From: Pseudisothecium myosuroides
Lineage: Eukaryota; Streptophyta; Bryopsida; Hypnales; Lembophyllaceae
Length of the DNA: 64,000 nt
Direction of reading: 5' to 3'
Assembly: GCA_951799445.1 (NCBI GenBank)
Contig: OX637287.1
Span: 37,849,724 to 37,913,723 of the forward strand
In this document: in pieces, positions 9,155-63,879 of the stretch
Position numbering within the stretch: position 1 is the stretch's first letter
Layout of the letters: every line of letters starts with the position of its first letter
Made by a program: the position numbers and the translations under genes
The notes under the pieces: model-generated
Told to the model about the DNA's origin: nothing
Seen by the model: only the letters and a program-made list of their open reading frames with translations
The model's database searches: none

Positions 9155-9733
9155 TTAACCCCTAAATCCCCAAGGCATTTTCTGGCTCCAAAACGACTGA
9201 AAACTACCATTTCTGTTGCGATCACTCCCTAAATCAAAAAAAACTTTTTTTTAGAATCTCACCGTAGGATCTTGTACTCCACTTGTCTTGAATCATGTGG
9301 TAAAAATTTCATGAAGTTTAACCATATGGATTGGAAGATATTAGCATTTGAAATTGGAGAAAGAAGTTTTTTTTTGAAGATGCTTAGATTGCTCGAAAAA
9401 CAAGATTGTCCATAACTTTCTCATTTTGAGTCCAAATAGAATGAATCAAAGCTTCAAATGTAGACACAAACATTATCTTCAAGGGGGAGAACAAATTTAA
9501 TTCAATTTAAAAAAATTTTTTTTTTTTGGCCCGGCGAACTGCTTTTTTGACTTTGAGTGGCATAACTTTTGCTCCCAGGCACCGATTGAAAAAAAATTAT
9601 AATTTTAGAAAGCTAATGTGATTCCCTATCTTCAAAAAAAGTTAAAAAAATCAGGTCAAAATTTGAGGTCACATGGGCCTACCTAAAATCCCAAGTGTCC
9701 CCCGAGGGGACTTTGGGGATTTAGGGGTTAACA
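9155..9733. repeat. Non-coding repeat with inverted ends
   Basis: TTTAACCCCTAAATCCCCAA near 9,156 is mirrored by TTGGGGATTTAGGGGTTAA ending near 9,731. The inside is non-coding and resembles the interior of the 30,643-31,711 TIR element, whose sub-terminal sequences also contain TTAACCCCTAAAGG. It is probably a related element whose true ends lie a little outside. Confidence 0.5.
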
Positions 9734-30642: not shown

Positions 30643-31711
30643 AGGTAGGAGGTCCTTAAATCGAGCGGGTTCTAAATGCGTCCCCTATCTAGGAAGGTGT
30701 GACATATTCTCTGAAAAATCTACTACAATCATTGATGAGGTAGGTGGGCTTAACCCCTAAAGGTCCAAACACCATTTTTTGACAACATAGCGATTTTGGG
30801 TAGCTCATTACGAGTGGAGTTTTTTTGTTTTTTTCTTTTAAATTTTCACACAAGATGTGCCCAAGGAGTAGCTGTAAGCCCCAACAATTTTCATAACTTT
30901 TGACTACATGGTTTAAAAGTTATTGTATGATATGTAATTTTTTGTGTACGGCGGGCAGCCCAGGCAGCTCAAAAAAATCTTTTAAAATCATTTTTTTTAA
31001 AAATAAAAATTTGAAATTGGTTCTTTAGATTTATATGTACGTGGAAAGATTTAAATCATTCCATTTGGATTAATGAGTCAAAAGTTATGAGGATTCTTAG
31101 TTTGAAGGTAGTTATGGAATCTCTACTCTAAAATAAACTTTGAAGTCCTTTATTTCACTCAATTTTCAATATTTTTGAAAAAAAATAAAAACATTGGATG
31201 TGGATTATTTATTACAACATTACAACCGTTGGGATTGGCATTTTTCAATTCCATAAATAAATTCTTAACAATTTAGTGTTTTGAATCATTCTCTACTTCT
31301 TTCTACTTACTATTTTTTTCCTATATGTTCTGCAATTCCAAATGATCTGAAATTTTTCAAGCATGTAGCCAACTTGCCTAGAAGACCGAATCCAAAGAGT
31401 AACCACTATTTTGGGCATTTTTTCATACAAGTGTGACCTTGTGAAGTGCAGCTGCCCGGATTTTCGCAGGGACAAAAAAGGATTTTTGTTAATTCAAACG
31501 CTAATATCTTCCAATCCGCACGGTGGAAAATTCTGAAATTTTTTCCACATCAAACCAGTGTTCTATAAGATCTTACGGTTACATATATCCAAAAAAAAAA
31601 AATTCTAAAGTTTGGTACTTGTATTAGAAATGGCAGTTTTGGAGCGGTTTTGGTGAAAATATAGTCTCTGACCTTTAGGGGTTAAATGGTCAATTTAAGG
31701 ACCTCCTACCT
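30643..31711. mobile_element. 1.07-kb TIR element flanked by TA
   Basis: Perfect 19-bp inverted ends AGGTAGGAGGTCCTTAAAT / ATTTAAGGACCTCCTACCT, each directly flanked by TA, as expected for a Tc1/mariner (Stowaway-like) insertion. The inside is non-coding and carries sub-terminal inverted TTAACCCCTAAAGGTC sequences shared with repeats elsewhere in the window. It is therefore a non-autonomous element. Confidence 0.8.
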
Positions 31712-34637: not shown

Positions 34638-34789
34638 ACTAGAAGAAAACTGCGTTGGTTTCAACAAAAATTACTTGATGTTTATTTTTGTTTCCAACAC
34701 AGAAACTGTGTTGGAATTTGAAATTTTGCATTGGATACAACAAAAACATCAAGTACTTTTTGTTGAAACCAACGCACTTTTCTTCTAGT
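34638..34789. repeat. Foldback MITE with ACTAGAAGAAAA ends
   Basis: Arms ACTAGAAGAAAACTGCGTTG (left) and the complement of AACGCACTTTTCTTCTAGT (right) pair almost fully through TTGGTTTCAACAAAAA and on to the loop. The termini resemble those of the CACTA element at 47,827 (CACTAGAAGAAA), apart from the first base. Confidence 0.7.
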
Positions 34790-35130: not shown

Positions 35131-35159
35131 TAACCTTTGCATGCACGTGAAGGTATATT

Positions 35160-35555
35160 TCTCTTACTTATGCACTTGCAATTCAGTTTTTTACAATTTA
35201 GTAGACTTCAGAGTTAATTTTGGCATAGTAAAACAACTTTTTTCAAAAAACTTTGAACTAAGAAAAGTTGTCAAATCAAACTACCTTTCACCTCCGAAAA
35301 CCGTTTGCAATTTTGACTCTCCAATCAAAAGTTATGGACTAAATTCAGAGCGCATATTTGAAAATGTCAATAACTCTCTTTGAATTTTGTTCATAACTTT
35401 TGATTGAAGAGTCAAAATTGCAAACGCATTTTTGGAGGTGAAAGGTAGCTTGATTTGACAACTTTTTTTTAGTTCAACGTATTTTGAAAAAAGTTATTCT
35501 ACTATGCCAAAATGGCCGCCAAAGACTGCTGAATTGAAAAAACACTGAATTTTGA
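35160..35555. repeat. Large foldback element (~390 bp)
   Basis: The left arm (about 35,163-35,340, from CAATTCAGTTTTTTAC through TTTGACTCTCCAATCAAAAG) is mirrored by the right arm (about 35,390-35,545), giving arms of roughly 150-180 bp with small mismatches. No coding role. Confidence 0.7.
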
Positions 35556-36171
35556 ATGATTAAGTTAAAAAAAATAAAAATCATTACAATTAAAATTCTA
35601 ATTGTGGTGTTTGAACTCCTAAATGCCTAAGGCACCAAATTTTGGTGTCAACAACATTTTGAAGTTAAATTAAAAGTCATCAAGTTACTATTTTTAAAAA
35701 ATTATTTTTGAAATATAGTTATAGCATTGGAAATTTGATTTTGAAAATGACTGATTTTGTTTTTTTTACTTAAGATTTTATTCAACGGTGTGTCCATTGC
35801 TTATCTTCATTTTCTAATGTTAAACACTCTTGGAATTGAGTGTCAAATACATTGGAACATGGAGAAAAATTGTATGCTTATATGCCTTTTAACTTTGTAG
35901 ATTTTGTAGATTTTGTAAACAATTTTATAGAAAGTGTACGTGTAAAAAGAAATTCAAACATATTACATCTATTGTTTATGGCTGCCTCCAAAAACTCTAT
36001 ATGCCTAAAGATTTTCAAAGATTCCAAAAAGATTCCAAATTCAACAAAAATTTGTTAATTTGGTCATTGCACTATTCAAATCAACAGAAAGTAAACATCA
36101 TTTTGTTGATTTTCACAAAAAGTTCAAAAGTAGTCATTCTAGTGCCCCAAACAACGGAAATCAATTGATTT

Positions 36172-43892: not shown

Positions 43893-44315
43893 CCTTAGGC
43901 CATCCTCAATTTGTCCCTCCAAACTTCTAAGTTTCACTTGTTTATAATTAGAACTTGAAATTTTTATCATTAGAGGCACATTTAGAGTACTTTGAAGAGG
44001 AACAAGAAAATTCAAACTTAAACATTTGACAATGGAAATTCATTTCTTCAAAAGTTAGCTAAAAGTAAAAATTATAGAGATTTTCGCAAGTCATGCTTAC
44101 CAAAGCAAGTTGCACTCCAAAATTTGGAGTGCAATGAACTAAATTTTGCTTTGGTAAGCATGATTTGTTAAGACCTCTATAATTTTGTTTTTTAGCGGGG
44201 GTGCTATTTTGTGAGCTTTGGAGCAAGAGCCCAAGAGCTGGAGAGCCTGTGAGCCTCGAGTCAAAAAAAAAAATTTTCCAAATTTTTTCGAAGTGCACCT
44301 ATAACCGTGGATTAA
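43893..44315. repeat. Left terminal inverted repeat of the 20-kb element
   Basis: Pairs in inverse orientation with 63,500-63,879. The best block is 43,940-44,062. It is interrupted at 44,067-44,187 by a hairpin insertion. Confidence 0.75.
44067..44187. repeat. Hairpin insertion inside the left TIR
   Basis: A ~121-bp foldback: AAAATTATAGAGA..CAAGTCATGCTTACCAAAGC pairs with GCTTTGGTAAGCATGATTT..CTCTATAATTTT, with an inner GCACTCCAAA/TTTGGAGTGC stem. Absent from the right TIR, so it inserted after the element formed. Confidence 0.8.
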
Positions 44316-47300
44316 GAGAATAAGCGGTTCCAGAGTTTCTGAAAAAAACATTAATAAAATAGGAGGCATTTTGAGTGCAAACTATGCTCAGTGATATCAC
44401 AGACTAGGAAAAAAAGACAACATATCGTGCATAGAGAATATATCATAAGTATATAGATATGTATATGGAAATACAAAAGATACGGTTAAGATTATCCACG
44501 GGCTTAGGTACTGCTAGAAGATCCGGATGCAGAGCTCTCATCAGTGGCTAAGGACTCATTGCTAGACTCTCTAGTAGTATCATCTATAAAAACTAAAACT
44601 CGTAGATCTAGCGTATGGGCTCTAGAAGCTGGGTTTGGGTTTAGGATCTCTGGCTGCCTAACTACTGCTTTGGCATACACTGGCAACTGAAAAGCTTTAG
44701 GGGGACTGCGGAAGAAGGCCGGATTTGCAAAGAATGGCTGATGTAATGGCATCTTCATTTTTGCACTTTGCCTACAAAAGACAGAAAACCTTACATGAGA
44801 TAGGATCCCCAAATAAAACCTCACATTTGTGGTTAAGGAGTATAAGGATAAACTTACTTACAAAAACGGGATGTCTTCTTCAAACGTTGGATTGGCACCA
44901 CCTCATCGTCCAAATCAACCAAAGTAGCTGTAGAGCTTTGCGGTTTAGGCTCTGGAATTGTGACGGGGCGGACAAATGGAGCAAGGAGAGCCTCATAAAT
45001 AGGCTTATCCTCCTCCAAAGCCACTATATGGCGCCCCGTCGCCTGACAGGCATAAATGCTGGCACCTGCAGAGATAGATAGATGTTAAAACGACAATGAG
45101 TAGAGTTTCATAGATCTAAAGTAATGTGAAGTAGCAATTGTAGAATTAAGTTGCAAAAAAGGAACTAACCTGTGGATGCTGTGCAGTCCAAGACAACGTC
45201 ACCGGGTGAGGTAGTCCCTTCAATAAGCATTTGCATGAAGGGGCGGGCCTTTTCACAGGCCCCACGCCAGGGAACATTGCCATTCATGGTCTGATCCTCC
45301 TTGTTGCAAAAATTCTGGAGAAGGTCATCCTTCCCCACATCAATGTCTATTGCTTTGTGAGCTGGGACAAATTGGAATGCGAAACTAGAGGGGGATGGGC
45401 TAGTGTCAGCCTTCACGTACAACAACATTTTGAACCGCAATGTCTGCAGAACGATTCAAATTAGTATTGGCCTTACCAAACAAATGCACTTTAAAATGAA
45501 CAAAATTTAAGAACATTGACCAATATCCATGGTAGATGGCTTACCGTGCCAGAGGGGTCCATGGGCGATGTCAAATGCAGTCTATTTGTGCCCCACCACT
45601 CCATTTTAGACTTAAATCCAAACGATTCGCAAAATCCCAAGAGGTAGGACTTAATGTCCCGGCTGAAAGGATAAATCACAAGAAGTGCACCAGCATCATG
45701 TAGATAGTTCTCAGCAAAGTCAAAGACGGCTTGAAGACCTACTTCCGAGAACTGGTTCCACTTTGGAACAGATGTTTGTGGAATGGAAACGCTGGGGACT
45801 AGTAAACCCTCTGGGACATCAACAATAATGAGGTTCACAACTGCTTCTCCGGTAACCACCCCATTAAAGAATCGTTTTTTGTCCGAGGCATGCTGCACAC
45901 ATGTAAGAGTGACAAAGACGGTTATGAAGATCTCAATAGACAAATCCATTGGCATGCAAAGGAGTGCACATCGGGATCATTTTAAAAAAAGCATGGCCAT
46001 AAATGCGAAGACAATCAAATTTTGCCACGGATGTATAGTATACCTTCTCCAAGAGAGTGATGACGTCCTGAAACGGCTGCGTAACTGGACCTTTCTCCAA
46101 CCCCATGAGACTAGATACTGAAACATTTAAGATACATTGATCAACAGCGGCAGCCGCACTGATGTCTGGAATTAGCGGTGGCAGGCTATGCAACAGATGT
46201 GACCGGGTGAGAGAGAAGCCTGAAGAAGTGTCCTTCATGGCTGCATCACTCGTCGCTTCAGCCACAACCAGAGTTTCCGCTTTCTGCTTCTTCCCCTTCT
46301 GCTTGCCTTGGGCATCAGCTTGGGCCTTCTCTGCTCTCCGATCTCTCTTCTTATTTTCGGACTCCTCTTGCTTCTTCTTAGCGGTTTCCAACTTCTCGTC
46401 TTTCTTCTTGTCAGCTATTTCTTTCTTCTTCAAGGCCTTCTCACGGGCGTCATCATCTAGCCCAACAAATTCCGGTACCTTCGACTCAAAAGTGGGGCTC
46501 TCCTTTATGCTTTTGAAAAGTGCGTCTTCCTTTGGCGGTATGAATAGGCCGCTGCATTCTAAGTACCAGGAGCCGGATTGAAGATGAGTAGTGGGCCAGT
46601 TCTTGTCTTGGGCAAGGGAGAACATACAAGCGTCGGAGGAGCAGTCCAACCATGTATTCAGAAAAGGCAGTAAATCAGCCTTTGAAATAGCCTTCTTTGT
46701 GTACAACTCCAATTTGAAATACCTAATCCAAAATCAAAATTTCAACTCTAGAGATCAACATTCATATCATCCACAATATAGTCATGAGCTGATTGGGAAG
46801 CTAAAAAATCAGACACGTGAAAATTTGACCTGGCTAGGATTAAACTGCATGACTTGGTTGACCGAATTGGTCTACCAGGCGAGAGAGGACAAAGGCTAAA
46901 ACTCTCACCTAATGGGCAGGGGGACATCAAAATAAAGGTAAACATGAACATAACCGCTAAGAACTAATTGAGTCAACTGTAAAAGAAAAACAAAGGCAAA
47001 CCTGTATATGGTCCTCTTCACCACAAGGTTGGAGTTCCTGAAGTCTTTGAAAGAGTCTCCCTTCTTGAAAGAGTCATTACTCTTGAACGCACCAGCATAC
47101 GCATGCTCCCAAATTTTCATTCTCCAGGCCTCAATGTAGTCGGAAAGTGACAGCGGCTCCTCAGGCACATCCATATTCACTTCAATATTGTCGGCCTTTA
47201 TAATACCCTCATATATGTCGAGAGCTGCGTCCTTGATCTGAAAATCAAAACAAAAGGCGAAGAAGATTAAAAGTAGTATACAAAATAAGAATCTAGAAAA

Positions 47301-47826
47301 CCGCAAGGTTGTATGCTATAAAAACGAACTTATCGCTGCATACCAGCAAGCCTTCGAGAGGAAGCTAGACAGTTTCTCGTCATTTGCTGGTCTTGGTGGA
47401 ACACGACGTGCCTCCCTGGTAGGTGGGGAAGAGTTTATCCACTTCAGCCACTTCACCTTATGCCGGGGCTCTGCAACTGCGGTGGCAATGAGCTGGAGCT
47501 TGTCCAAGGTCAACTCCTGGACAGCGTACAAGCTCCAATGCTGTTCAATCTAGAACACCACAAATGAAATTTAGTGCGGTCACCACGGATTTATCAACAA
47601 AAAATTCCCCCCAAAATGACAGAAGCATCAAGTACCTTGTGAAGCCATTCATTCCCCAGAATTGGAGTCGCCACAGATTGAATCTTCGATAGTTTCTGGT
47701 AGAGAAGGCGCACTGCTTCATTTGATGCGTTACGCATTGCTGCTGCAATACCTGTTGGAGTGACATCCCCCGGTGCTGTATCCTCGTGGTATTTTCGAAC
47801 AGCAGCATCAGCTGTTAACGAGATTT

Positions 47827-50127
47827 CACTAGAAGAAACCCGTGTCTTTTTTGATGTCAAACCAAAACTGCAATGTTGAAGGCAAAACATACGGTGTCTA
47901 TGGGGACATCAAGATGTCTAAAAGACGGATTGTGGTTTTGGTAGAATTTTAGAGATGTTTCACATGACAATGACAAATTTGAATGAAAACAAGTTGGTGT
48001 TACCATTAACGTCGAGGTTTTTGATGACATATTTGATGACGAGCTGATGTCCTCAAGATCATCAGCAAAAACATCGAGAGCCATGTCAGCTTTATTGACC
48101 CATTTTCACTGCGGATAATTTTCCAAAAATTACTACAATTTTGGATAAAGCATTGCCCAAGGTAAAAAAAAGGGGATCGGGCAGTCATGGGGCAGTCTTT
48201 GAAAAAATAAATGATGATGTGGCAGATGATGTGGCTTGCCACGTGGAAATTGACTGACGTGGCATCGAATAATGATGACGTGGCATGCCACCTGGAAATT
48301 GACTAACATGGCATCGAATAATGATGACGTGGCATGCCTTGTCAGCATATGAGGGCTGCATTGTAGGTATTCTATGCTTATTTCAGAGATGTCTACGGAG
48401 ACGTGGAGACATTGTATGAAACATTGAGATGTCTACCAAGACGTCACCTAAAATGTGACAATGTATTTGGAGACGTAGTTAGAGACGGCAAAATGTTTAT
48501 GGAGACATCTATGGAGACTTGAGGACGTTTCAAATGACACAACTTCAATTAACATAGGATACATTTGCATTTCAATGTGACTTTGTACCTTATGCATTTA
48601 AGTACATTCTTTGGAAGTTCAACGAGTAATTGAAGGTGTCGTCTTACATGTCCAACAGTCTAGGTCATGATCAAAAACCATGTTTTCAACAAGATCAACT
48701 TCCATCACGGATTTTCGATGTATATGGCTTGTCTTGGGCAACGCAAAATTTTGGATGTCTATGTAGACATTTGAAGACATCAGACAAGACATCAAGACGC
48801 AAAATCTAGCAATAAAATCAAATATTGTTTTCTTATAGTGTCATGTGCATAAGTTGTCATGTATTAATTTTTCATCTTTCAATTGCAATGTATAGGATCA
48901 ATCCCTGAATGTGAACTCGTGCCTTCTCCCTCCCCTAAATGTGTAAAAGACACCGATATGCCTTGAGACTTCCTCCATCACTATTTGGCAGACACTAATA
49001 CGCTTCAAGAGACATACATGCAGACAAACCATTGTATCTTGCAGACGTCCTCTCAAACATCTGTGTGTTGGCCCACTGAAATATATAGGACCGACAAGTG
49101 CTAAGCTTCATCTTCCAACGCAACATTGTCTCCTTGTATGTCTCTAAAACCTTTGATAATCTTCAGAGGGACATAGAAGTAAACAACCCACTTTATCCTC
49201 TGGACGTCATGTCAGACATCTGAGTGTTGCCCCATAGAAATTTAATTCACACATTTTAAATATCCCATATAATTTGTCTTCCCTCCTACCACCCTACCGG
49301 TATAAAGAGACTATCTTCTTTCCTCTGTATACTCACATGAAGTGGCTTGTAAAGCCATGTGATATAGTTTTCAAATTTGGTGTATTTTGTATGGCGTATT
49401 TTGTATGATGTATTGTATATTATGTACTGTATACTATGTATTGTTTACTATGTATGATATATGGTGTACTGTGTATGATATGTTGTATTAGACATTGTGA
49501 AATGCACATGAATGTCATGTAGGATACCTACGTCTAATATGACATCATTATGTTTCTCTAAATCATCCTAAGCATTGCAAGAGGAATTCATAGTGAAATG
49601 CAGACGTCTACATTGATGTCACAAGATATGTAGATGTTAAATTTAACATCTCAAAAAACATGTGGATGTTAAAGTTGACGTCTCAAAAAACATCTAGACG
49701 TCTAAGATGACGTCTCCAAAAACGATACTAAAATTCTTAGACAACAAAAAACTATGCTGACGTGGCATGCCACGTCAGCCTTGTTGGATGCCACGTCATT
49801 TTTTCCGCTGCCATGTCAGGTGCCACCTCAGATGCCACATCATGGACAAAATTGGATGAAAAAAAATCCTACGTGGCTGCCCGTGCACGCGTGGCGCTTA
49901 GGTGGCAGCCACATGGCGGCCTTTGAGGACCCCGTTGACCCATGTCATTTCTGATGTCTGCTGAAATCACGGTGACATTAGGCCATGTTATTTTAGATTT
50001 TTGATGTTTTTGGCGTGTCAACTTTGACGCGAAAAAAGTGACATCCACGATGACGCCCCGTGACATCGTCATGGACGTCCCGGTGTCCAAAATCGACGAT
50101 CTGCGAAGATGCGGGTTTCTTCTAGTG
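47827..50127. mobile_element. Non-autonomous CACTA (EnSpm-type) transposon
   Basis: Termini CACTAGAAGAAACCCG at 47,827 and its exact complement CGGGTTTCTTCTAGTG ending at 50,127, flanked by a 3-bp TTT duplication, the hallmark of CACTA elements. Sub-terminal inverted repeats (GATGATGTGGCAGATGATGT.. on the left; GATGCCACATCATGG on the right; many TGACGTGGCATGCCACGTCA words) and palindromic AGACGTCT motifs fill the ends. No transposase is encoded. It sits inside an exon of the methyltransferase-like gene; removing it and one TTT rejoins the exon. Confidence 0.9.
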
Positions 50128-51294
50128 TTTGAGTGTTTCTTGCTGCCAAAACAAGATTGAGGACAAGAATTCAAATAAAAAATCTTATCACATTGTACTC
50201 AACTATACAGACATACAACATCATACGGCAACAAAATAAAGGGGATAAGTACAAGCTTACTTGGTAAATGAATGAAGTCAACACCTCCAAGGGCATAGGG
50301 TACCAAGACTTCTGCACGTAGACTTCACATGCCTTGACATCCTCCGGACTCACTAATTCGTTGAACCTCTCTAACGGCATCGAACCGTACTTCCGAACAC
50401 GATATATGGTGTGAACAAGGTTCGTCTTCACGTGCGAGTTTTTGGTGTGCTTAATAAAACAGTGGCAAGAACATTGTTAGAAATTAGTGACGAAACAGTA
50501 GACTGGAAATAAAATTGAAGAAGAGGAAAAAAACTTACTGATTGATATCATGCATGACCTGCATTGCTGCAAATTGTTTGTCTTTGGTATCCAATACTAT
50601 AGAATCAACACGGATGTGCCACTTTGGGTTCGTGTTGTAGAGGCGCTGAATATGTCGCATCCACGCTATACGGCGATGGTTGTCGTCGCAAATAAAAAAC
50701 TTGGCCCCCACCAAGTGTTGTAGCTCAGGTTTACATCTCAGGAAATCATCAAACTCATCGTTGACGGTATTCCAGAGGGGGCCCCATTCAGATTTCTTTG
50801 CGCTAGAAAACACACCAGAATTGCCTCCTTCGTCCGAAACTGAAACGTAGAACACTCAAGCTCCGACTTCATAGCCGTGGACGAAATCCATCTCAAGCTG
50901 GATCAAATCACACTCTAGGATAGGCCTAACCATGGGCATAGGAACCAGACGACACAAAGGTATGTCCATCCTTGAAAGATGTTGTGGCCTAATGCGCATA
51001 CTGGTAATTGCTGTAACATAATCCAGCTTCTGCGTCCTCCGAATATCGTCCTCATTAAGGAACTCCTCACCACCTTCCTGAGCTGGGACATCCTGGATGC
51101 GACCATCCCGCCCCCCATCAATTGAATTTGTGGTCTCAGCAATACCAATTGACGGAGCAGTATCTGATGTCATTTCGACAGGGATGGGATTGATATCGGA
51201 TGTCATGTCCTGGAATAATAGAGGCAGAAATGTGAGATCGAAACTACTGACATTTGAAACTGGGAAATTAAACAAACAAAGGGAAGGGAATTCA

Positions 51295-53800
51295 TCCCCC
51301 CTCCCCGACTAGACCAACTGCCCAGCCTGAATTCTGACCACGACCACAACCCTGGTGAGCCTTTGGGAAAGCCCTCGGTGGCGAGAGGGCTCCCCCCACA
51401 ATCCCAACATGGAACTAAAAAAAAATTGGGAGGGGATTTCGTCCCCCTCCCCAATTTCACCACTGCCCAGCATGATTTCGGACCACGATCGCAACACAAG
51501 TGAGCATATGAGGGAGCTCTCGGTGGCAAGAGGGCTCCCTCCACAATCCTGACTTGCAAATGATAAAAAAAGGGAGGGGCATTCATTCCCCCTCCCTAAT
51601 TTTACCAGACTGCCCAGCATGATTTTCTCACCAAGATCGCAACACTGGTGAGCATATGGGGGAGCTCTCGGTGGCGAGAGGGCTCCCCCCAGAATCTCGA
51701 CTTGGAAATGTTTAAAGAAAAGGGAGAGACTTCATCCCCCCTCCCCGACATGACCAGACTGCCCAGCATGAATCTCTGACCACAATCGCAACAATGGTGA
51801 GCAGTTGGGGGAGCTCTCGGTGGCGAGAGGGCTCCCCCCAGAATCCCGACTTGGAAATTAAAAAAAATTGGGAGGGGATTTCATCCCCCCTCCCCGACAT
51901 CACCAGACTGCCCAACATGAATCTCTGACCACGATCGCAACATTGGTGAGCAGCTGGGGGAGCTCTCGGTGGCGAGAGGGCTCCCCCCAGAATCCCGACT
52001 TGGAAATGTTTAAAGAAAAGGGAGGGGACTTCATCCCCCCTCCCCGACATGACCAGACTGCCCAGCATGAATCTCTGACCACAACCGCAACAATGGTGAG
52101 CAGTTGGGGGAGCTCTCGATGGCGAGAGAGCTCCCCCCGGAATCCCGACTTGGAAATTTTTGAAACATTGGGAGGGGATTTCATTCCCCCTCCCCGACAT
52201 GACTAGAGTGCCCATCATGATTTTCGGACCATGATTGCAACACTGGTGAGCAGATGGGAGAGCTCTCGGTGGCGAGGGGGCTCCCCACACAAACCCGACT
52301 TGGAAATTAAAGATAATTGGGAGGGGATTTCATCCCCCATCCCAGACTTGACCAGACTGCCCAGCATGATTCTTGGACCACAATCGCAACACTGGTGAGC
52401 CTCTGGGGAAGCTCTCGGTGGCAAGAGGGCTCCCCCCGGAATCCCGACTTGGAAATTAAAAAATAATTGGGAGAGGATTTCATCCCCCCTCCCCGACATG
52501 GCCAGAGTGCCGAGCTTGAATCTCTTATCACGATCGCAACACTGGTGAGCCTCTGGGGGAGCTCTCGGTGGCGAGAGGGCTCCCCCCCAAAATCCCGACT
52601 CGGAAATTTTAAAAAAAAGGAGGGGACTTCATCCCCCCTCCCCGACTTGATCAAACTGCCCAGCATGATTCTCCGAGCTCGATCGCAATACTTGTGAGCA
52701 GCCGGGGGAGCTCTCGGTGGCGAGAGGGCTCCCCCTAGAATCCCAACTTGGAACTTTCTAATGAAAAGGGAGGGGACATCATCCCCCCTCCCCGACTTGA
52801 CCAAACATTCCCGCATGGATTCTGACCACAATCGCAACACTGGTGAGCCTCTGGAGGAGCTCTTGGTGGCGAGAGGGCTCCCCCCGGAATCTCGACTTGG
52901 AAATTAAAAAATAATTGGGAGGGGATTTCATCCCCCCTCCCCGACATGGCCAGAGTGCCGAGCTTGAATCTCTGATCACGATCGCAACACTGGTGAGCCT
53001 TTGGGGGAGCTCTCGGTGGCGAGAGGGCTCCCCCCACAGTCCTGACTTGCAAAATAAATAACAAAAGGGAAGGGACTTTGTCCCCCCTCCCCGAGATGCC
53101 AAGACTACCCAGCATGATTCTCCGAGCTCGATCGCAACATAGGTGAGCAACCGGGGGAGCTCTCGGTGGCGAGAGGGCTCCCCCAAGAATCCAGACTTGG
53201 AACTTTTTTAAAAATAGGGAGGGGACTTCATCCCCCCTCCCCGACTTGACCAATCTGCTCAGCATGGATTCTGACCACAATCGGGACATTGGTGTGCCTC
53301 TGGGGGAGTTCTTGGTATCCAGAGGGCTCCCTCCACAATCCCGACTTGGAATTTAAAAAAAAATGGGAGGGGATTTCATCCCCCCTCCTCGACATGACAC
53401 CACTGCCTAGCATGAATCTCTGACCACGATCGCAATACGCATGAGCAGATGGGGGAGCTCTCGGTGGCGAGAGGGTTCCCCCGGACAATCCCGACTTGAA
53501 AATTAAAAAAAAAATGGGAGGGGATTTCGTCCCCCCTCCCCGATGTGACCACAGCCCAGCATGATTTCGGACCACGATCGCAACACTGGTGAGCAGCTGA
53601 GGGAGCTCTCGGTGGCGAGAGGGCTCCCCCGGACAATCCCGACTTGGAAATTAAAAAAAATTGGGAAGGGATTTCGTCCCCCCTCCCCGATTTGACCACT
53701 GCCTAGCATGATTTCGGACCACGACCGCAACACACATGAGCAGCTGGGGGAGCTCTCGGTGGCGAGAGGGCTCCCCCGGACAATCCCGACTTGGAAATTT
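51295..53800. repeat. 149-bp satellite, 17 tandem copies
   Basis: CCCCCTCCCCGA-type boxes start at about 51,295, 51,441, 51,586, 51,735, 51,883, 52,033, 52,183, 52,332, 52,481, 52,630, 52,780, 52,929, 53,080, 53,229, 53,378, 53,528 and 53,678, i.e. a steady 145-151-bp period. Each unit holds a hairpin GGGGGAGCTCTCGGTGGCGA..GGGCTCCCCC and a GGGAGGGGA/TCCCCCCTCCCC inverted pair. It lies in intron 2 of the methyltransferase-like gene. Long open frames here are only a by-product of the repeat. Confidence 0.95.
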
Positions 53801-54015
53801 TGCAGTACCGATTAGCTGGGGCTTCATCTTTCGAATTCAGAAACGTACCTCCGTGGCTTGAGGTTGTGCTGCCTGCTCGGAAACTTGGGCAACTTCTTTC
53901 CGTCCTAGGTCCCGTCCGCTCCTTGTCTCCATTGGATCGCTCTCAGGAATCGATGCAAATCTCTCCCCAAGACTGCTCTGTAGAGCAATAACAATTTCTA
54001 AAGAGAGAAGCTTGA

Positions 54016-54256
54016 GGTTTCGGCACCTACAAGTCCGATCCGAACCCTAAATCCTAGCCTGCGTTTGGAGGTGGCGGCTGGGTCGGTGGTGCCATCGACC
54101 TAATCCTCCCTATCGGCAAGCGGGAGCGGGAACGGATTTTCCAAGGACTTATCGGGCTGTTTGGTCGGCAATCGAATAGTGGTATAATATTTGGAATTCA
54201 AATATTACTAATTTATTAGGTAGTATATAAAGTACTCTATTATCTTCTCTACGCGT
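54016..54256. repeat. Direct repeat DR1 (promoter-like)
   Basis: About 90% identical to 57,387-57,639. Includes GAACCCTAAATCCTA (telo-box-like), GGCTGGGTCGGTGGTGCC, and near its end a TATATAA in the plus orientation. The two copies could be LTR-like ends of an insertion or a duplicated promoter. Confidence 0.85.
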
Positions 54257-54463
54257 TGTTGTGTTGCAAATGCAGACATTATATAGAATATGTATATACA
54301 TATGATTTAGATAGATTTAAATATTTGTAATATTATATAGGGGATGACGTCATTTGAGATGGCTTCAAGGTAACGCCTTTGCTTTTCGACTATATAGAGA
54401 AGGATTCACTTGAAAGCTTCATCTCATTTGATATTCTTCTTCTTCGTGTTTATTTAGATTACT

Positions 54464-54922
54464 ATGTCAAACTGGAGGGTTTTTTTTGAGTCTCAAGATG
54501 AAGAATCTCAACTGGAGCGTGAATTTGAATTTTCTTTATCGCAACTGCCGGATCAGCCACAATAGCCACTGGATCTTTCATTGCAACATGGGCGACCAAA
54601 AGATGAAGCTGGGCCGTCTCGACCACCGAAACAACCTCGCGTGGAGAAATGATGGCACGGTAACCTTCAACGTGACGCTCGAGCATTGGTGATTTTGTTG
54701 CAGGTTGGATGTGTTGAGCCCGGCAGCCGTGAAGTCACATTTGAAGGATGTTTTGAAGGCTTAAACGACGAGCAATACTATTGCATGGTGAGGAATATCG
54801 AAGGGAGTCGTGGTCACCAACGATGGTTGGAAGGGCCAGTCAATTCCTTAACCAAGGCAAATCGTGCTAATTATGTTGTCGCTATCGTCAAACGCATCCT
54901 CAAATTCTTGCAGATGGAGTGA
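54464..54922 (+). pseudogene. Small unknown gene between the direct repeats
   Basis: From an ATG at 54,464 (about 240 bases after the TATATAA of DR1) the frame reads 33 codons rich in Glu/Gln (MSNWRVFFESQDEESQLERE onward) to a TAG at 54,563. Past the stop the same frame continues with GRPKDEAGPSRPPKQPRVEK, a plausible nuclear-localisation-type stretch. A second open part (to 54,922) preceded by TTTTGTTGCAG reads FEGCFEGLNDEQYYCMVRNI and ends ILKFLQME. It looks like a two-exon gene inactivated by a C-to-T stop. Family not recognised. Confidence 0.35.
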
Positions 54923-55259
54923 CATTTCGATTGGAACTTTAGTTTTTTTACCTCTACTAGGTATATGTTGGATTTTAGTTGTTCATTCCATAGTTGAAGT
55001 GATTTCTTAGAATAAATTTGTACTTGTGAAGTAGTATGAGGGAAATATTTAATTAGTTTGCCTTTCAGGTGAACTTGTAGTGAATTTTCTTCAAAGATAA
55101 AGATAAGAAAATAGTTGTGGGGCCAAATAAATGGTCAATTATTGTTGTGATAGCTTTGGGAGTGAGTTAGGGGCTGACCCCACTTGTTTGTATGGTTAGA
55201 ATGAAGATAAGGTGGAGAAAAAGGTGGATACTATTCATCTTCTTCCCCGTTGTGAGTTT

Positions 55260-55925
55260 AGGAAGGACCCGAATGTTTGGAGGATCATTGTGTGTTGAGT
55301 TTTTGGAGTTTGGTAATAAAAATTGGAAGAATTGTTTATCATATTGTTAGCTTTTCAAATTGTCATCTCTTGCTCTGTTTGAAGTTGTGAGTTGAGATTT
55401 GTGCTTGTTTGAGTGGAGGTGAGTCTACTGCCTCCTATGAAGAGGGCTGAGACTTTGACCAACCATAGAAGACGGACAAGTCTTTAATTTGCATTGAATC
55501 TTAAAGAGGATGTGGAAGATTTTATTAGCTTTTCAAGTAGATATCATTTGTGTTATTTGAAGCATTTATGAATGAGTTGTGAGTGTGGGAGTGAAGGAAG
55601 GTTTGCTGCCTCCTATGAAGAGGGGCTGAGACTTCGACCGACCATAGTAGACGGACAGGTTTTTAGTTTGTATTGAATTTTGGAGAGGTTGTGGAGGATT
55701 TTGTTAGCTTTCTAAGTAGCTATCAGTTATTTTTTTTTAAGCATTTATGAATGAGTGGTTAGTGTGGGAGTGAAGGAGGGTCTGCTGCCCTTACATTTAG
55801 AGGCCGAAACTTTGAACGGCCATAGATATTGGACAAAGTGTTGAAATGAGTTGAAACTTGGAGGAATTGTAGAAAATTGTGTTAGCTTTTCAAAAAGCTA
55901 TCATTTGTATCATTTGGAGTTGTAG
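55260..55925. repeat. ~180-bp tandem repeat, about 3.7 copies
   Basis: Blocks containing CTGCCTCCTATGAAGAG, GACTT(T/C)GACC(A/G)(A/G)CCATAG and TTAGCTTT(T/C) recur near 55,428, 55,607 and 55,785 with a ~179-bp step. Confidence 0.8.
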
Positions 55926-55979
55926 AGCGACAGTGGCGTTAGTTCAAAGTTCGACTTTGAAATTGGAGTTGCGGTTTTG

Positions 55980-56678
55980 AAGTTTGGAGTGAAGATTTGG
56001 AGTTTGAAGTGAAGATTTGGAGCTTGAAGTGAAGATTTGGAGTTTGGAGTTGAAGATTTGGAGTTTGGAGTTGAAGATTTGGAATTTGGAGTTGAAGATT
56101 TGGAATTTGGAGTTGAAGATTTGGAGTTTGGAGTTTGGAGTTGAAGATTTGGAGTTTGGAATTGAAGATTTGGAGTTTGGAATTGAAGATTTGGAGTTTG
56201 GAATTGAAGATTTGGAGTTTGGAATTGAAGATTTGGAGTTTGGAATTGAAGATTTGGAGTTTGGAGTTGAAGATTTGGAGTTTGGAGTTGAAGATTTGGA
56301 GTTTGAAGTTGAAGATTTGGAGTTTGAAGTTGAAGATTTGGAGTTTGGAGTTGAAGATTTGGAGTTTGGAGTTGAAGATTTGGAGTTTGGAGTTGAAGAT
56401 TTGGAGTTGAAGATTTGGAGTTTGGAGTTGAAGATTTGGAGTTTGGAGTTGAAGATTTGGAGTTTGGAGTTGAAGATTTGGAGTTTGGAGTTGAAGATTT
56501 GGAGTTTGGAGTTGAAGATTTGGAGTTTGGAGTTGAAGATTTGGAGTTGAAGATTTGGAGTTTGGAGTTGAAGATTTGGAGTTTGGAGTTGAAGATTTGG
56601 AGTTTGGAGTTGAAGATTTGGAGTTTGGAGTTGAAGATTTGGAGTTGAAGATTTGGAGTTTGGAGTTGAAGATTTGAA
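55980..56678. repeat. 21-bp minisatellite, about 33 copies
   Basis: Unit GAAGATTTGGAGTTTGGAGTT with a few point variants (GAATTTGGA, AGTTTGAAGTT) and some 15-bp short units. Because 21 is a multiple of 3, both strands stay open for hundreds of bases; these frames are not genes. Confidence 0.95.
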
Positions 56679-57064
56679 AAATTTTGTATGTTGTGGCTTG
56701 TGGTCCATTGTTTTGTTATTCCTAGCCAGATTTGGAGGCTCGTTGTTCTTTTATTGTTATTCCTAGCCGGTTTTGGAGGCTTGTTGTTTTCATTTTTGCA
56801 TCGTAATCCTGTTGCGGGCTATGCGGTAACTCAGGATTAGCCCCTTTTTGTGTTTGTTGATGACGAAGTGGGATTGATCACGCACATGGTCACTTTTATG
56901 TTGTTCCCATTGGTGAGGCACGATTGCTGGTCACCGTGGGTTTGAAGTTTAGGAACCATTCTTTCGGACGGTCAGCTCGTGGTTTGGTCGTCCCGTTTTA
57001 CCCGTCCGAGGCCTTGTTTCTTATCACCTACCCTTACCCTGGTCTTTAGAGAGCCACCACAGGA

Positions 57065-57155
57065 TAGGCCAACGAGGTGAAGATTGAAGACTGAAGATTG
57101 AAGATCGAAGACTGAAGACTGAAGACTGAAGATCGAAGATTGAAGACTGAAGATA
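57065..57155. repeat. Short GAAGACT/GAAGATT tandem repeat
   Basis: About nine units of TGAAGACTGAAGATCGAAGA-type decamers. Confidence 0.85.
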
Positions 57156-57386
57156 GTATAAAAGATCCTAAGCGATTTCTTTGGCTCATAAGCCATCTCC
57201 AGTTAGTTTGGTGAATTTGCGGGTGACAAGATCACTTGCCTTCATCATTCTTACTTCATTTTGATAGTTAGATGCTTTTGCGAGTGACGAGCTCACTTGC
57301 CCTCATCCTTCTTGTCCTTAAGCCATCTCTGGTTGCAGCCAGAATCCCTGCGATTTCCCGAAGTAAACTCTCTCTACACGACATTT

Positions 57387-57639
57387 GGTTTCGGCACCCA
57401 CAAGTCCAATCCAAACCCTAAACCCTAACCCGCATTTGGAGGTGGTGGTGCAAAAGGCGGCTGGGTCGGTGGTGCCAAAGACCTAATCCTCCCTATCGGC
57501 AGGCGAGAGCGGGAGCGGATTTTCTTAGGACTTATCGGGCTATTTGGTCGGCATTCGAATATTGGTATAATATTTGGAATTCAAATATTATTAATTTATT
57601 AGGTAGTATATAAAATACTCTACTATCTTCTCTACGCGT
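57387..57639. repeat. Direct repeat DR2
   Basis: Second copy of the 54,016 repeat, with a 12-15-bp extra piece (GGTGGTGCAAAAGGCGG) and a better telo-box (ACCCTAAACCCTAACCC). It lies in intron 1 just after the first exon of the minus-strand gene. Confidence 0.85.
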
Positions 57640-57872
57640 GAAGTACGTTTTGAATAGAAATCGGGGATGAGTATTGGACTTACAATGCAAATATGTCGGC
57701 CGTGTCGTACAATTACTTCCTCGGTTTCCTCTTCCTCGGATTGAAGGTCAACAGCTTGTGGTTGCGTTTGACCACTCGGAGTTGCAGCATTGGAGCACTT
57801 TCGGGACTTACCCGGCTCGTTGAATTTTGGTGCCACTGGTACAACTCTACGTGAAGCTTTCTGATGATTCAT

Positions 57873-58722
57873 TTTGGATCACCTTAACTCTTTGCAACTA
57901 CGGAAGCGCACTGTAAAACAACCAACCTATCCGCCCTCTACCCTAGAATGCGGAAGCTGTGACTCCTATGGACTTGATATCACGTAGCTTATGGAATTGG
58001 ATCGTAAGGACCATTACATCTAATATTGGCTTGACAAGAATGACCTCTGGTTCAATGAAGGGATGATTTGACACAAAACGATGTGTAAGAATAAATAAGG
58101 TATGTTTCCTCGTTTTATATTGCAGTTAGTTGACATCCTTAATCACTACGGTCATTTTGATAAATTTTCAAATCCAGGTACTTAATGGTAAATATTTTAG
58201 TTTCAGGGTTGCTGATCTTTGTTGATTCAATTCGCGCGGTCAAGTGTTGTGCTTGCAAGTTTTAAGGTGCTTGATACCTGTTTTAAGGACTACTTATATA
58301 TGGAGAGCGTCAGAAAGTGACATGAAGTTTATACCACTTTCTTCAACGATCCTTTAAAATGATATTCTGCATATCGTTAACCGCCGTTCACTTTGAAATC
58401 ACCTACATATTTTGAATTTCTCTTTATTGCTTCGATATCGATATGAGCTTCTGGAAGGATTTTCTGATTTGGTATTTTGAAATTCTATTTCACAGTATCG
58501 TCCTTGAGATATGTCTATAGATATTGTGTAATAAAGGCTCTGACCTTAAATGATTCTAGTTTAACTGCATTAGGACCGTCATCCCGGACTTTCTGACGCC
58601 ATGTGACTCTGAGTTAAAAATGGTATACTTCAATATCCATTATCATTCCACCTTCTACAACCTCTGCGGTTCCTAATCATGTTCTGATCAGCACTTTTTT
58701 ATACTGTTATCATTCTTGCGCT
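57873..58722. promoter_or_regulatory. Shared divergent promoter region of the 20-kb element
   Basis: The 850 bases between the ATGs of the methyltransferase-like gene (minus) and the transposase gene (plus). A bidirectional promoter here would co-express both element genes. No specific box is convincing. Confidence 0.45.
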
Positions 58723-61700
58723 ATGGCTTCTATTAGAGCTGATGGTCATGATGTACCACTGCTTCTTCGTTTAAACGTCAATGGATTAGTCGATGTGTCA
58801 AGTGACCTCCTTCACGTCCGATATGGTTTCAAAGAGTCTTCAATCTATGTTGAGGAAGAGATTCAGTCGAATTCAGGGACTTTACTTCAGTTGATTCTCA
58901 TGCCTCGGACTAACAATGTTCATGGATACGTCTGGAACTTGTCAGCGGGTTCGTTTAGGGCTTTCGGCTTGTCTGATGATGTGATGGCCGCCTCAACGAA
59001 GATCTTGACCCCCTTGTCTAGAGCATCTACTGCACAGGTTCCTGTGTTTAGAGTTGTGAAGGTTGAGTCTGATGGACCATCTGAACCTAATTCTTTAGGA
59101 GGACAAAGTTATTGCAAATCAGTCGACAAGCAATTTCTAAGTCCAGTTGTTGAGTTATCTAGCGATTTGGAGGATGAGACCACGATTGTTGGTCGCCGTC
59201 TCTCTTCTTTATGTTCTTCCGACGGTTCACCAGGGTTACCTACAACTCTATCAACCGCCGGACGAGACAATAGTGCAGGGAGTTCTATCTTTTCGCGGCC
59301 GCCATTGTATCCAACAGAGCGCCAATTTCCTAGTGTCATGCAGTGTCTTAAGAACTTATGGAATATCCGAGGATGTAGAAACGAGTTGGCTACTCTTGAT
59401 TTCGAGGCCATATCGTCTAGGAAGGTCCAATTTCTTCCGACTAGTTTTGATGGTGACCTTGTCTTGGAGCTGCCACCTTGTCGGACATTAGCGTCCTCCA
59501 GTTCTTCAAGGAGTATGAGTGGAATGGACAAACGCTATGACAGCCATACATGGTGTCGTAGTATGACCTCGAACATTCATAATGACTCTGGCCTGAAGTT
59601 CAGGAAGTCTTCTTGTGCGGGTCACTTGATATGCATGAATGAGGCTTGTGACTATCTGAAGCGTTGTACGCGGAGGAACGAAACAAAGTGGTCCGGTAAT
59701 ACTGGCACGCCTTTCCACGTGGGGTGTATCCCTCCAAAGGATTCGATTAGTTTGCAAAGTCTGTAAACTTTTGCCAACCTGCGTAAATTTTTGCGATGGT
59801 AGAATTTACTATGTCATAGGTGCGCCTGATATGACGAGGGCCTGTATTCATTTGGGAACTCATAACCACCCCGTTGCTGATGGCCTTTGTCGGGATTCCA
59901 TGGACACCATATCAGGGCTCATTGCAAAAGAAGTAGAGAAGACCCCTACAGCCAAAGCCTCTGCAATTGCTCTAGCTGCTAGCAAAGAGTTCCTAGACAT
60001 GTTCTTGGTTCATTTGGGTGATGACTCTAAGGAAATGTTGAAGGGAAAGGCATTAGATGATGTCATGGACAAGTTCCAAGTACTTAGCTCACCAAACATT
60101 AGAAACATGATTGCATCGTTCCGTAGCACTAGAGTTGGAGGGGGGGAGATAGATCACCTACTGGTGATGAAGAAGCAAGCGAAGATAGAATTTTTTTCAT
60201 GATAGCGTGTTTCCAGGTCAGAGGCAAGAGAAAGTGTATATGTTTAAGATGCTTATTGATGGACCTGGGAGTGGAGTCGATCTTATGCGGCGGATGCAAC
60301 CAGGGGGTGATCTAGCTAATTGTTGGCTTATGTTTGACCATGTTAAGAGGGTCAAGGGGTGGACTACCATTGCATGCCATGTCTATGATGCTAGCTATTG
60401 TAAAGTCATGGCTATTGCAGTTTGCGATATGCAATCAGAGGATACTGATGGACAAGTCATTATGTGGAGATGTCTTAATAGAGTTATGGAGAAGAATGGC
60501 TTACAAAATCCCAATTTTGAAGGCTTCATGGCAGATAGTGCACAAGCCAACTGGAATGCTGTTCGAATCATTTACGACACCGGTGATCCTACTGTGAAGA
60601 TGGTGGACAGAGAACGCACCTGCCTCTTTCATTGGGCCACTTCAATGAAGCAACACATGGAAAGACTCATTAAGCGAGAATTTCAAAGCCAGCACATGAA
60701 GATCTGGAGAGACTACAAAGACGCGAAGAATCTTGACGAGGCAGAGAGCAGGTACCTTCAAATCAAGGCGTGGTGGTACTCCTCTGGTGCTGCAACGGAG
60801 GAGTCTTTAAAGGAGCTTGAGTTGTGGTTAGCCTTTTGGCATTTCATATATCGGCAATGGGATGGCTTCATGGAAACTGTAAGACCTTAGTTCTTATTTC
60901 CTTTACTTTCTAAGCAATACTATACTTGAAGATTCACTATTACTTCTGCTGTAAACCTAAAACGTTTTCTTTCAATGGTGCAGGATCTATCAACGGAGGA
61001 GTTGGCAGATATTCCGTCTTGCAATCTCTCGGAAACAATTCACAACAAGTGGCTGCAGGCATCAGGGAAACGTGGGACGGACTTATATGTTGCGACATGT
61101 GATGATTGGATACGAGCATTCATGCAAATGACGAATTATCGGATGTATCTCAACGGTGGCCCATCTGGATTCGGACCCTTGAGATAGGACTTGAAGTTGA
61201 AGAGAGCAGTGGCATCCATGGATGGAAAAAGAATTACCGATGCCTTGTGCAGCATGCCCGGTGTCGAGGAAGTATGCACACGCATACCACACTTAGAAGG
61301 GGAGGAAGTGTTTGGTTCCACAAAACGGAAATTAGACGTGCCCATTGGGTGTGAAGGTGATTCTCATCGTCCAGATAAGGTAATTTTTCCCATCCTAGAG
61401 TGCAATTACGGTCTGCCTTTGCCGCAGATGCCAATGTGGAGGAGATCAACCCCGGCTTCAGTCATACGATGCACGTTTTGGAGACGGATTGTAACCCTTC
61501 TGAGTGGCACATAGCCTGCATTTCTGTGAAGTCAAAGAAAATATGTCATGCCATTCAGTTTGCGATGAAGGTGAAGTGCAAGATGACCATAGTTAAGGGC
61601 TCTAAAGCCACCGCTGCTCCAACATATAAAGGTCAGAAACGAGAGTTCAAAGGAACAAGAGTGGAGACAATCGAGTTTTGGTTTTGTCCGGATGATATCA

Positions 61701-62356
61701 AATGTTGTGTGATGGGTCCCAGGAGGTCTCACGTCCTCAGTCGACCAAGAGTTCCTGATGTCTGGCCAGTCATGATAGGTACAGCCCTCTCTTCCGACGA
61801 GATTATTCTCTTCGAGGAGGCAGGCTTTCGCTTGCAAGAGCGACCGTCCTTGTCTCCACGACGACTCTTTACGTCCTCAAAACTTTTTGAAGTTGTACAA
61901 TGGACGTATGCAAGACCTCCTCATGCTGACAAGCCTCCATGCATCCGCAATGGAAAAAGCATTCGTAGAAATGAGAAGGCGCCAACTGATGATCACCGAA
62001 ACCAATGGGAGAGCGCCAGAAATGTTACAGGGAATATATTGGGTGTAAATATTTTGCCGTACCCGGGTCTTGGAGCTGTCATCACCCTACAGTCTGGAGT
62101 CGAACCTCATCATATGGTGTATTGAGTCACTATCTCCAATTTTCCAGCTTGTACGTGCTTGTATTTCACCGGAATGGTGTCTACATCCATTGGAAAGAGA
62201 GGAAAATATGTCAATTGCAAACATCTATATTACATTTTCCAGTATTTGTGCAAGGTGGACCACAAGAAAGACAAGTTCATTCACGCACCAAGCTTCAGTA
62301 TGGATGAAGTGATGAAACTACTTGAAATGGCAGGGATGATGAAAAATACGGCTTGA
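58723..62356 (+). pseudogene. Mutator-like (MULE) transposase, inactivated
   Basis: Starts at ATG 58,723. Domains in order: ~300-residue acidic/Ser-rich N-terminus; a Cys/His zinc finger (VCKVCKLLPTCVNFCDGRIY then RACIHLGTHNHPV, about 59,753-59,880); the MULE catalytic core (LMFDHVKRVKGW with the first Asp, GFMADSAQANWN with the second Asp, CLFHW, then an acidic helix, 60,240-60,878); and a C-terminal SWIM finger (ACTCLYF .. YVNCKHLYYIF, about 62,145-62,240), ending at TGA/TAA near 62,356. An intron 60,879-60,983 is clear (ACT|GTAAGA..GGTGCAG|GAT, phase 0). Lesions: frameshift near 59,745 (probably a 5-bp GATTC loss), frameshifts at a G7 run (60,140-60,146) and a T7 run (60,191-60,197), in-frame TAG at 61,185, a frame change near 61,380-61,430, and TGA at 62,123. 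The family is recognised from domain order, not a database search. Confidence 0.85.
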
Positions 62357-63499
62357 AATAGAAGTAATAACATCGAATACGTTGTTAGTGGATTAAATGA
62401 GTATTGTATTTGTATAAGTGTCAAAGTAGGAGCTTAGACTTTCAATATAGGAGCCTATGAATTAAAAGTCTACTTCCTTGAAGTACTATACGTGTATTCA
62501 AATTTCTAGATAATCACTTTCCTAAAAACAAAGTCCATGTATTTCAAGCAGTATATCAAATGCTCTATCTTGGACATATGAATGTATCTAGAACCTTTGG
62601 ATGATTTGGAAATGGAAGATTGTGGAGCCCTACATGAAGTAGTCCGGTCTTTGACTTGCACAAATTTGGCCGAATGAAGTGGGAGCCAAATCCTTTACAT
62701 TATTTATATATGGATCTCTTTGTTGGCCTTCACGATTTTGTGCTTTTAAAATCTTTGATATTTTGTAGTTCGGTCCGGGGGAGAGGCAAACAACTCTCCT
62801 CTGATATTATTAAGTTCCACTCTATGGCACCCTCGTGGGGCTCTCTCGCTACCGAGAGGTGTTTCTTGGGGTGCTGGTGTTGCAATTGTTTTGAAAAGAG
62901 ATGAAAGTGCGTTGGTTTCGGATAAGGGGAGGGAGATCCCTAAACCCTTCACGTTGTTGGGGTTCCAATGGGTGGGATCCAATCGTCTCTCTTGCTACCA
63001 AAAGCCCCTACTTGGTTTACCGGCACCGAGCTTTCATTTTTGGATTAAAGTACGTTGGTTTTTGATCAGCGGAGGGTCGATCTCCTTCCCTCCCCTTTTT
63101 TGGGTTATGGTTGGAGGCACCCTCGTAGAAGTTCATGGTGGTGGAGAAATACTGCATGGGGTGCCTGGTTTATATATTTCCTAAAATATATATTTAGGTT
63201 CGTTGATATTGTCACATTTCAATGTGGGGCACTGAGTTCCAGTAGTCTTCAGGCTTTGACATCATCGTACTCAAGTCCTCTAGTATTGGGCTATTTTGTG
63301 ACTCTTGATCATGAAGGTGAAATTTGTAGGTCAATCAAATATGTGTTGGTTTTGAAATTCAGAACGCAGATACCACTCTGCATTTCTGCTCCGCGGTCAT
63401 GGGTCGAAGGTCACTAAAATTGTGGTATTAGGTCGACACTGACTGATCCGCAAAATCAAGAGCACAGTCAACAGCTCACAGTCATAGGTCCAGAATCAT
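62357..63499. other. 3' region of the 20-kb element with degenerate satellite copies
   Basis: Around 62,770-63,180 two to three units of ~145-155 bp resemble the 149-bp satellite in inverted orientation (GGGGCTCTCTCGCTACCGAG at 62,836, CTCTCTTGCTACC at about 62,987; GGGGAGGGAGATCCCTA at 62,925, GGAGGGTCGATCTCCTTCCC at about 63,070). At about 63,420-63,520 short repeats of 'cataggtc' occur. No gene. Confidence 0.45.
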
Positions 63500-63879
63500 A
63501 GGTCCACGGTAATAGGTCTACATTAAATATGTTTTTTAAATCTCTAAAAAAATTTGAAACTCTAAACTATATTTAGTTTTCTTAAGCAATCCCTCCAAAA
63601 TGTCCACCTTTTTTTGCGGAGGATGTGAGGGCTCGCAAAACTTACGCTCGCCGCTCTCAAGCTCGCGCTTTTAGGCTCACAAACTAGCATCGTTGGTTTT
63701 TTAGCTTGCTTTTGAAGTGATTTATTTTCATTGTCAAATGTCTAAGTCTAAATTTTCTTGTACTTACTCAAAGTACTCTGGGATGCACTTGCAATGATAG
63801 AAATTTCAAGGTCTAATTATAAACCGGTGGAAAGTTAGTTGTTCATGTAGAGGGGCAGTTGGCAGAGTGCACTCTAAGG
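63500..63879. repeat. Right terminal inverted repeat of the 20-kb element
   Basis: Inverse partner of 43,893-44,315; best block about 63,703-63,822 (…TCTAATTATAAA). Confidence 0.75.

Follow-up and report, generated by a model that had tools for sequence, protein, structure and literature searches.

We analysed a window of 64,000 nucleotides from the moss Pseudisothecium myosuroides (GenBank assembly GCA_951799445.1, contig OX637287.1, positions 37,849,724 to 37,913,723 of the forward strand). Our subject is a locus of about 20 kb in this window. Two divergent multi-exon genes are readable there, and they point outward from a central spacer. One of them is transposase-like. The other ends in a methyltransferase-like domain. 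A pair of inverted sequences is located just past the 3' ends of both genes. We favour, with some reserve, the reading of this locus as an old and inactive DNA transposon with terminal inverted repeats (TIRs). It would be provisionally a Mutator-like element (MULE), with a transposase and a ParB-like/beta-class methyltransferase accessory gene of the kind found in giant transposons of algae. An earlier note on this DNA had proposed a large TIR element that carries both a transposase gene and a methyltransferase-like one. This is still the best reading of the locus. However, both genes are broken and the catalytic position of motif IV is altered, which the note had overlooked.

The inverted pair (43927-44064 and 63699-63838) is 80% identical over 140 bp in a blastn self-comparison of the window (E 2.5e-27). 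A gapped local alignment of both ends starts at 43912 and 63857 and reaches a score of 140. In comparison, 60 segments of 1 kb, drawn at random from the window's first 43 kb and reverse-complemented, gave a maximum of 61 and a mean of 27. The left TIR (43912-44254, plus strand, with its last bases placed from a motif cluster) is interrupted by a nested palindromic insert at 44058-44196. This insert resembles a miniature inverted-repeat transposable element (MITE), with 51-nt arms that are 84% complementary. It is missing from the right TIR (63631-63857, minus strand, bounded by the alignment and its motif clusters), and the alignment carries on across the site. Without the 139-bp palindrome, the alignment scores 155 and reaches about position 44246 in the left arm and 63653 in the right arm. 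The TIRs are about 200-230 bp long, and such long terminal inverted repeats are a character of MULEs. So, the TIRs reported at 43.9 and 63.8 kb are present as sequence, but their ends had been put at 43893 and 63879. The best bounds from the self-alignment and the motif clusters are approximately 43912-44254 and 63631-63857. The idea of two unrelated MITEs is rejected, since the palindromic MITE lies inside the left TIR only and otherwise neither end is palindromic.

The inner ends of both TIRs carry oriented clusters of a short motif in mirror image. Six GAGC motifs stand on one strand on the left (44213-44254, plus strand; spacing 8, 6, 8, 8, 8 bp), and five GCTC motifs stand on the right (63631-63678). 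Among the stretches listed, 13 reach five GAGC per 101 bp (the first three overlap). Two of these are the TIRs and five are in a tandem array described below. Because such stretches also occur outside the TIRs, the density alone is not special; the orientation and the mirror symmetry are what matter. The motifs at the left TIR are possible binding sites.

The methyltransferase-like gene, with its ParB-like stretch, occupies 44857-51206 on the minus strand. By three-frame reading and scripted placement of the pieces, we modelled 1,033 amino acids in 11 pieces. The exon joints are our own reading, and two of them look damaged (50.54 and 47.33 kb). One exon is probably missing from the model, in the gap between 50.26 and 48.10 kb, and the gene may extend into an exon at about 44.5-44.77 kb. 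The intron-sized gap also contains inverted repeats with TGACGTGGCATG motifs (48214-48349 and 49753-49843), which may be a nested MITE. An in-frame TGA stop is present at 50856-50858 (minus strand). Near the N-terminus, the motif FFICDDNHRR (50670-50699, minus strand) reads as ParB-like. The stretch FFICDDNHRRIAWMRHIQRLY, after which come a likely strand and MHDINQ, resembles what we take to be a domain of the ParB/sulfiredoxin type. We retain the ParB-like reading of the N-terminus because a published algal protein has the same architecture of ParB-like and methyltransferase parts, and we infer it on that ground.

The last 277 residues match methyltransferases in five libraries. They hit N6_N4_Mtase in Pfam (E 1.4e-4; 22.3 bits, under the cut-off of 26.7), phrog_3008 in PHROG (E 1.8e-7), CcrM in NCBIfam (E 1.9e-4; 20.5 bits versus an equivalog cut-off of 830), CcrM 6pbd in the PDB (E 7e-4), and MTase_II in PADLOC (E 5.4e-6). 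The N4C/N6A DNA methyltransferase domain of the ParB-methyltransferase accessory proteins of transposons is thus found here. Judged by these profiles, the minus-strand gene is confirmed to end in a beta-class DNA-methyltransferase domain.

Weak tblastn matches to the domain (E up to 1) come from 255 phage records and 171 plasmid records. From the matches listed, we aligned six bacterial and phage relatives whose match reaches motif IV (L001-L006; E 0.04-0.9). All six present the motif order IV, X, I, which is the ordinary order of the beta class. The C-terminus that had been called permuted is methyltransferase-like, and as its order is normal, permutation is discarded as an unusual feature. 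In this order, in the motif I region, and in the KW pair seen in three phage enzymes, the domain is like the beta-class methyltransferases (CcrM, DpnA, and phage methylases with DIPYG or DLPYG). It differs from them in having Glu instead of Tyr in motif IV, and in that its gene is eukaryotic, has several exons, and encodes a long N-terminal part.

The motif IV position, VNLIIVDVPEG (45806-45838, minus strand), aligns to the DIPYG/DLPYG/DPPY of the relatives. More precisely, they show DIPYG, DLPYG, DLPYG, DPPYE, DPPYN, and DPPYN (the last two sequences resemble one another closely), and the window shows DVPEG. The Asp, Pro, and Gly of the motif and the following KW pair are common to the window and the three phage enzymes. 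Motif I, GDVVLDCTASTG (45168-45203, minus strand), is within the stretches matched by Pfam, phrog_3008, and CcrM 6pbd. It reads STG in the window versus GSG in each of the six relatives.

With the domain alone as query, two proteins were recovered at E up to 0.1 among 1,068 candidates. P0001 (164 amino acids, 4,168-bp contig, E 1.2e-36) is 57% identical over 117 residues. Its match runs to the end of the window's exon and then diverges, and its motif IV stretch is VDLIIVDVPEG. P0002 (170 amino acids, 2,887-bp contig, E 1.1e-9) matches over 42 residues only, beyond motif IV. By eye, its tail resembles the next exon of the window in another frame. Both may derive from a different species or represent further copies within the same species. 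Since they are exon fragments, they are uninformative on adjoining TIRs or transposases. The whole reconstructed protein had no match among 7,994 candidates scored with words from its first 500 residues, and the last 277 residues had none among 3,396 candidate proteins of full-length size. In viral contigs, neither the transposase core nor the methyltransferase domain nor alignment A2 gave a relative, and genome contigs scanned with alignment A2 gave none either.

The canonical motif IV with an aromatic residue ([DNS]xP[YFW]) is thus absent from both element sequences, and the window and P0001 have DVPE. Decay of the window copy is ruled out as the origin of DVPEG, since P0001 carries it too. 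Because two well-diverged copies have it in common, the aromatic residue seems to have been replaced in the lineage, and this appears to be a new point. The aromatic residue of motif IV stacks on the flipped base. As both element sequences have Glu in its place, it is doubtful that this lineage performs ordinary base methylation.

These residues bear on whether the accessory protein is active as an N6A/N4C methyltransferase with its own element as substrate, the role proposed for the algal proteins (PMC12477816, in its accessible part). That proposal speaks for an active enzyme, and so does the alignment with the three phage enzymes, in which the Asp, Pro, Gly, and KW pair are preserved. On the other side, the aromatic position is Glu in two of two element sequences and Tyr in six of six relatives, motif I has STG where the six have GSG, and the window copy has an in-frame stop. 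We find an active enzyme rather doubtful. From the residues, a role in binding or in sensing S-adenosylmethionine seems at least as likely as methylation.

The transposase-like gene (58723-62353, plus strand) presents a zinc-finger-like N-terminus, a DDE-like core (60204-60887), and a SWIM-like motif CxCx20CxH (62126-62353). It is broken by a frameshift at a T run (60190-60204), by an in-frame TAG stop (61185-61187), and by an in-frame TGA stop just ahead of the SWIM-like motif (62123-62125), all on the plus strand. So, the decay amounts to two stops and one frameshift in this gene and one stop in the methyltransferase-like gene. Assembly error is a possible source of the breaks, above all of the frameshift. 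As read, this copy is non-autonomous as it stands. The Pfam SWIM profile scores below its threshold (E 0.14; 12.2 bits versus a cut-off of 19.6), and this match was not recovered with a shorter piece or with the whole composite; CxCx20CxH is visible. A structure model of the core has low confidence (predicted local distance difference test, pLDDT, of 46), too low to lend it weight. Its first fold matches are to ISCth4, at insignificant values (E 0.34-0.51). We take ISCth4 to be a member of the IS256 family, related to MULEs. Against plasmids, the core had no match.

The central spacer is occupied in part by two tandem arrays. Directly upstream of the methyltransferase-like gene is a GC-rich array of 17 copies of a 149-bp unit (51259-53800), with a GC content of 0.55 within an AT-rich window. 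The consensus unit contains two imperfect palindromes, GGGAGGGGA-N7-CCCCCTCCC and GGGGGAGCTCTCGGTGGCGAGAGGGCTCCCCC. In conservation along the consensus, the 32-bp palindrome ranks first of 119 windows and the 25-bp palindrome ranks 12th of 126. This conservation is only suggestive of a function, as the units of an array are not independent. The second array has about 35 copies of a 21-bp unit (55963-56676). The earlier note counted exactly two divergent multi-exon genes between the TIRs. Both are readable and divergent, but that count omits these arrays, about 3.3 kb in all. The region between both genes also has a 253-bp direct repeat inside the element, 87% identical (54016-54256 and 57387-57639).

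A published system resembles this locus. The accessible part of PMC12477816 (2025) describes a 21.5-kb Sola-1 element of Ectocarpus (Sola1-1_Ec32). On the strand that does not encode the transposase, this element has a gene for a product of 1104 amino acids with ParB-like and N4C/N6A methyltransferase domains. The same text proposes that such proteins bind and modify their own element, and reports that in its giant families the transposase has often become a pseudogene. It mentions similar proteins in transposons of green and red algae (citing Iyer et al. 2011; Petroll et al. 2025), as well as giant KDZ and EnSpm elements with accessory genes. Compared with Sola1-1_Ec32 as described there, the window element is similar in size (about 20 kb versus 21.5 kb), in the accessory gene opposite to the transposase strand, in product length (at least 1,033 versus 1104 amino acids), and in the methyltransferase domain. 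If the ends are read as TIRs, this single locus also agrees in that the carrier is a giant TIR transposon whose accessory gene and transposase lie on opposite strands. In contrast, the transposase probably belongs to another superfamily and the host of Sola1-1_Ec32 is a brown alga. The ParB-like part of the window protein is recognized at the level of motifs only, and its motif IV is altered; for this comparison, the Ectocarpus protein is known by its description.

Another comparison is VANC, which the accessible part of PMC13317346 presents as an anti-silencing accessory gene of VANDAL, a MULE of Arabidopsis. Likened by this description, both would be elements of the MULE type with an accessory protein that acts on the silencing of its own element. 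Unlike the window element, VANDALs are described as non-TIR MULEs, and the word methyltransferase is not used in that review. Within the parts consulted, the main text of PMC6446971 on MULE evolution lacks the terms methyltransferase, methylase, and accessory, and PMC12695648 on eukaryotic N6-methyladenine makes no mention of ParB. In the literature searched, where most subscription journals were outside coverage, we found no MULE or land-plant element with a gene of the ParB-methyltransferase type. The earlier statement that a MULE coupled to a methyltransferase is not described agrees with this as far as MULEs and land plants are concerned, but the algal Sola-1 element (PMC12477816, accessible part) is a precedent for the coupling.

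Several results weigh against one element of the proposed kind. The window has three further inverted matches with more than 20 kb between the two copies; they score 60-85 bits and come from a dispersed repeat. There was no target-site duplication with both copies at the TIR ends (8-11 bp, at most one mismatch), in a search where the element ends are uncertain and the TIRs are 20% diverged; at any position in the two flanks, the same search gave 15 matches of 8-11 bp that differ at one base. The transposase has no Pfam match to MULE at E up to 10. Most profile matches to the methyltransferase domain are confined to the end with motifs X and I, roughly residues 168-233 of 277, and the alignment of motif IV therefore depends on the weak tblastn matches. 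The N-terminal part has no ParB match in the Pfam, PHROGs, NCBIfam, PDB, phage, and plasmid searches (in phages and plasmids, at E up to 10 for the ParB-like part), and the structure model of that part is uninformative (pLDDT 38).

The first two of these results agree with a different origin of the locus. The ends could be inverted copies of a dispersed repeat, and the genes unrelated neighbours, namely a dead transposase and a methyltransferase-like gene that was acquired separately or belongs to the host. Since the dispersed repeat also yields long-range inverted matches, an inverted match by itself is no proof of TIRs. However, the TIR pair is the top-scoring one (120 bits) among the inverted matches more than 20 kb apart, and has no match elsewhere in the window at E 1e-4. 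The pair also lies just past the 3' ends of both genes and carries the mirrored GAGC clusters, and a transposon-borne gene of like kind and layout is documented (PMC12477816, accessible part). We consider unrelated neighbours unlikely. The inverted pair at 43.9 and 63.8 kb probably represents the TIRs of one element, and we infer from its position and symmetry that both genes are part of it.

The type of this element is a separate matter. It could be a TIR transposon other than a MULE, for example Sola-1, KDZ, or EnSpm. The documented ParB-methyltransferase gene is carried by a Sola-1 transposon, and the same source describes accessory genes in giant elements of the KDZ and EnSpm types (PMC12477816, accessible part). 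The lack of a MULE profile match and of a 9-bp target-site duplication at the ends, and the subterminal clusters of motifs, point in the same direction. On the contrary, the layout of a DDE-like core with a C-terminal SWIM-like CxCx20CxH, both features of the family, and the weak structure model, whose first match is ISCth4, argue for a MULE. A different superfamily seems improbable to us. The protein had been called a SWIM-type MULE transposase; its CxCx20CxH is readable, but with no Pfam match to MULE and SWIM below threshold, we name it MULE-like provisionally. The accessory gene would then probably be one of the algal kind, in another type of transposon and in a land plant.

Other features are present elsewhere in the window. 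An uninterrupted gene of the dynamin family, 693 amino acids long, with dynamin N, M, and GED domains (Pfam 1.6e-48), occupies 14857-16938. A minus-strand open stretch (27750-28346) has no Pfam match; its beginning presumably resembles the RRM of plant FCA. A dispersed repeat family of about 200 bp, 68-70% identical, appears in both orientations (4154-4350, 9144-9352, and 31493-31696). There is also a 421-bp palindrome (35156-35576), 81% self-complementary, which is a large MITE or hairpin, with smaller ones at 34638-34789 and 3782-3920. Finally, an inverted pair of about 170 bp, 84% identical and 1.5 kb apart (7605-7773 and 9275-9443), is perhaps a small TIR element.

Returning to the MULE-like element with its accessory gene, the accessory protein would have bound the element's own DNA. 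Both the palindromes of the 149-bp array and the GAGC clusters at the inner TIR ends are candidate targets, and by binding there the protein may have marked, shielded, or re-activated the element. Most likely, then, a protein of this kind would recognize its own element and alter its chromatin or DNA state. A more specific and quite speculative version is that plant DNA transposons carry a conserved pseudo-methyltransferase. This would be a ParB-like binder with the motif IV aromatic residue replaced by Glu, loading on the palindromes of the 149-bp array to avert silencing or to gather the ends for transposition. If true, a bacterial modification enzyme would here have given rise to a VANC-like anti-silencing device.

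Should intact copies show the same coupling, ParB-like methyltransferase genes would have entered unrelated superfamilies of transposons in both algae and plants. Such repeated uptake would point to a function that is repeatedly useful, for example in marking or protecting the DNA of the element itself. As two diverged copies have apparently lost the catalytic aromatic residue, a clear question can be put for this family: whether the DNA is methylated or only bound.

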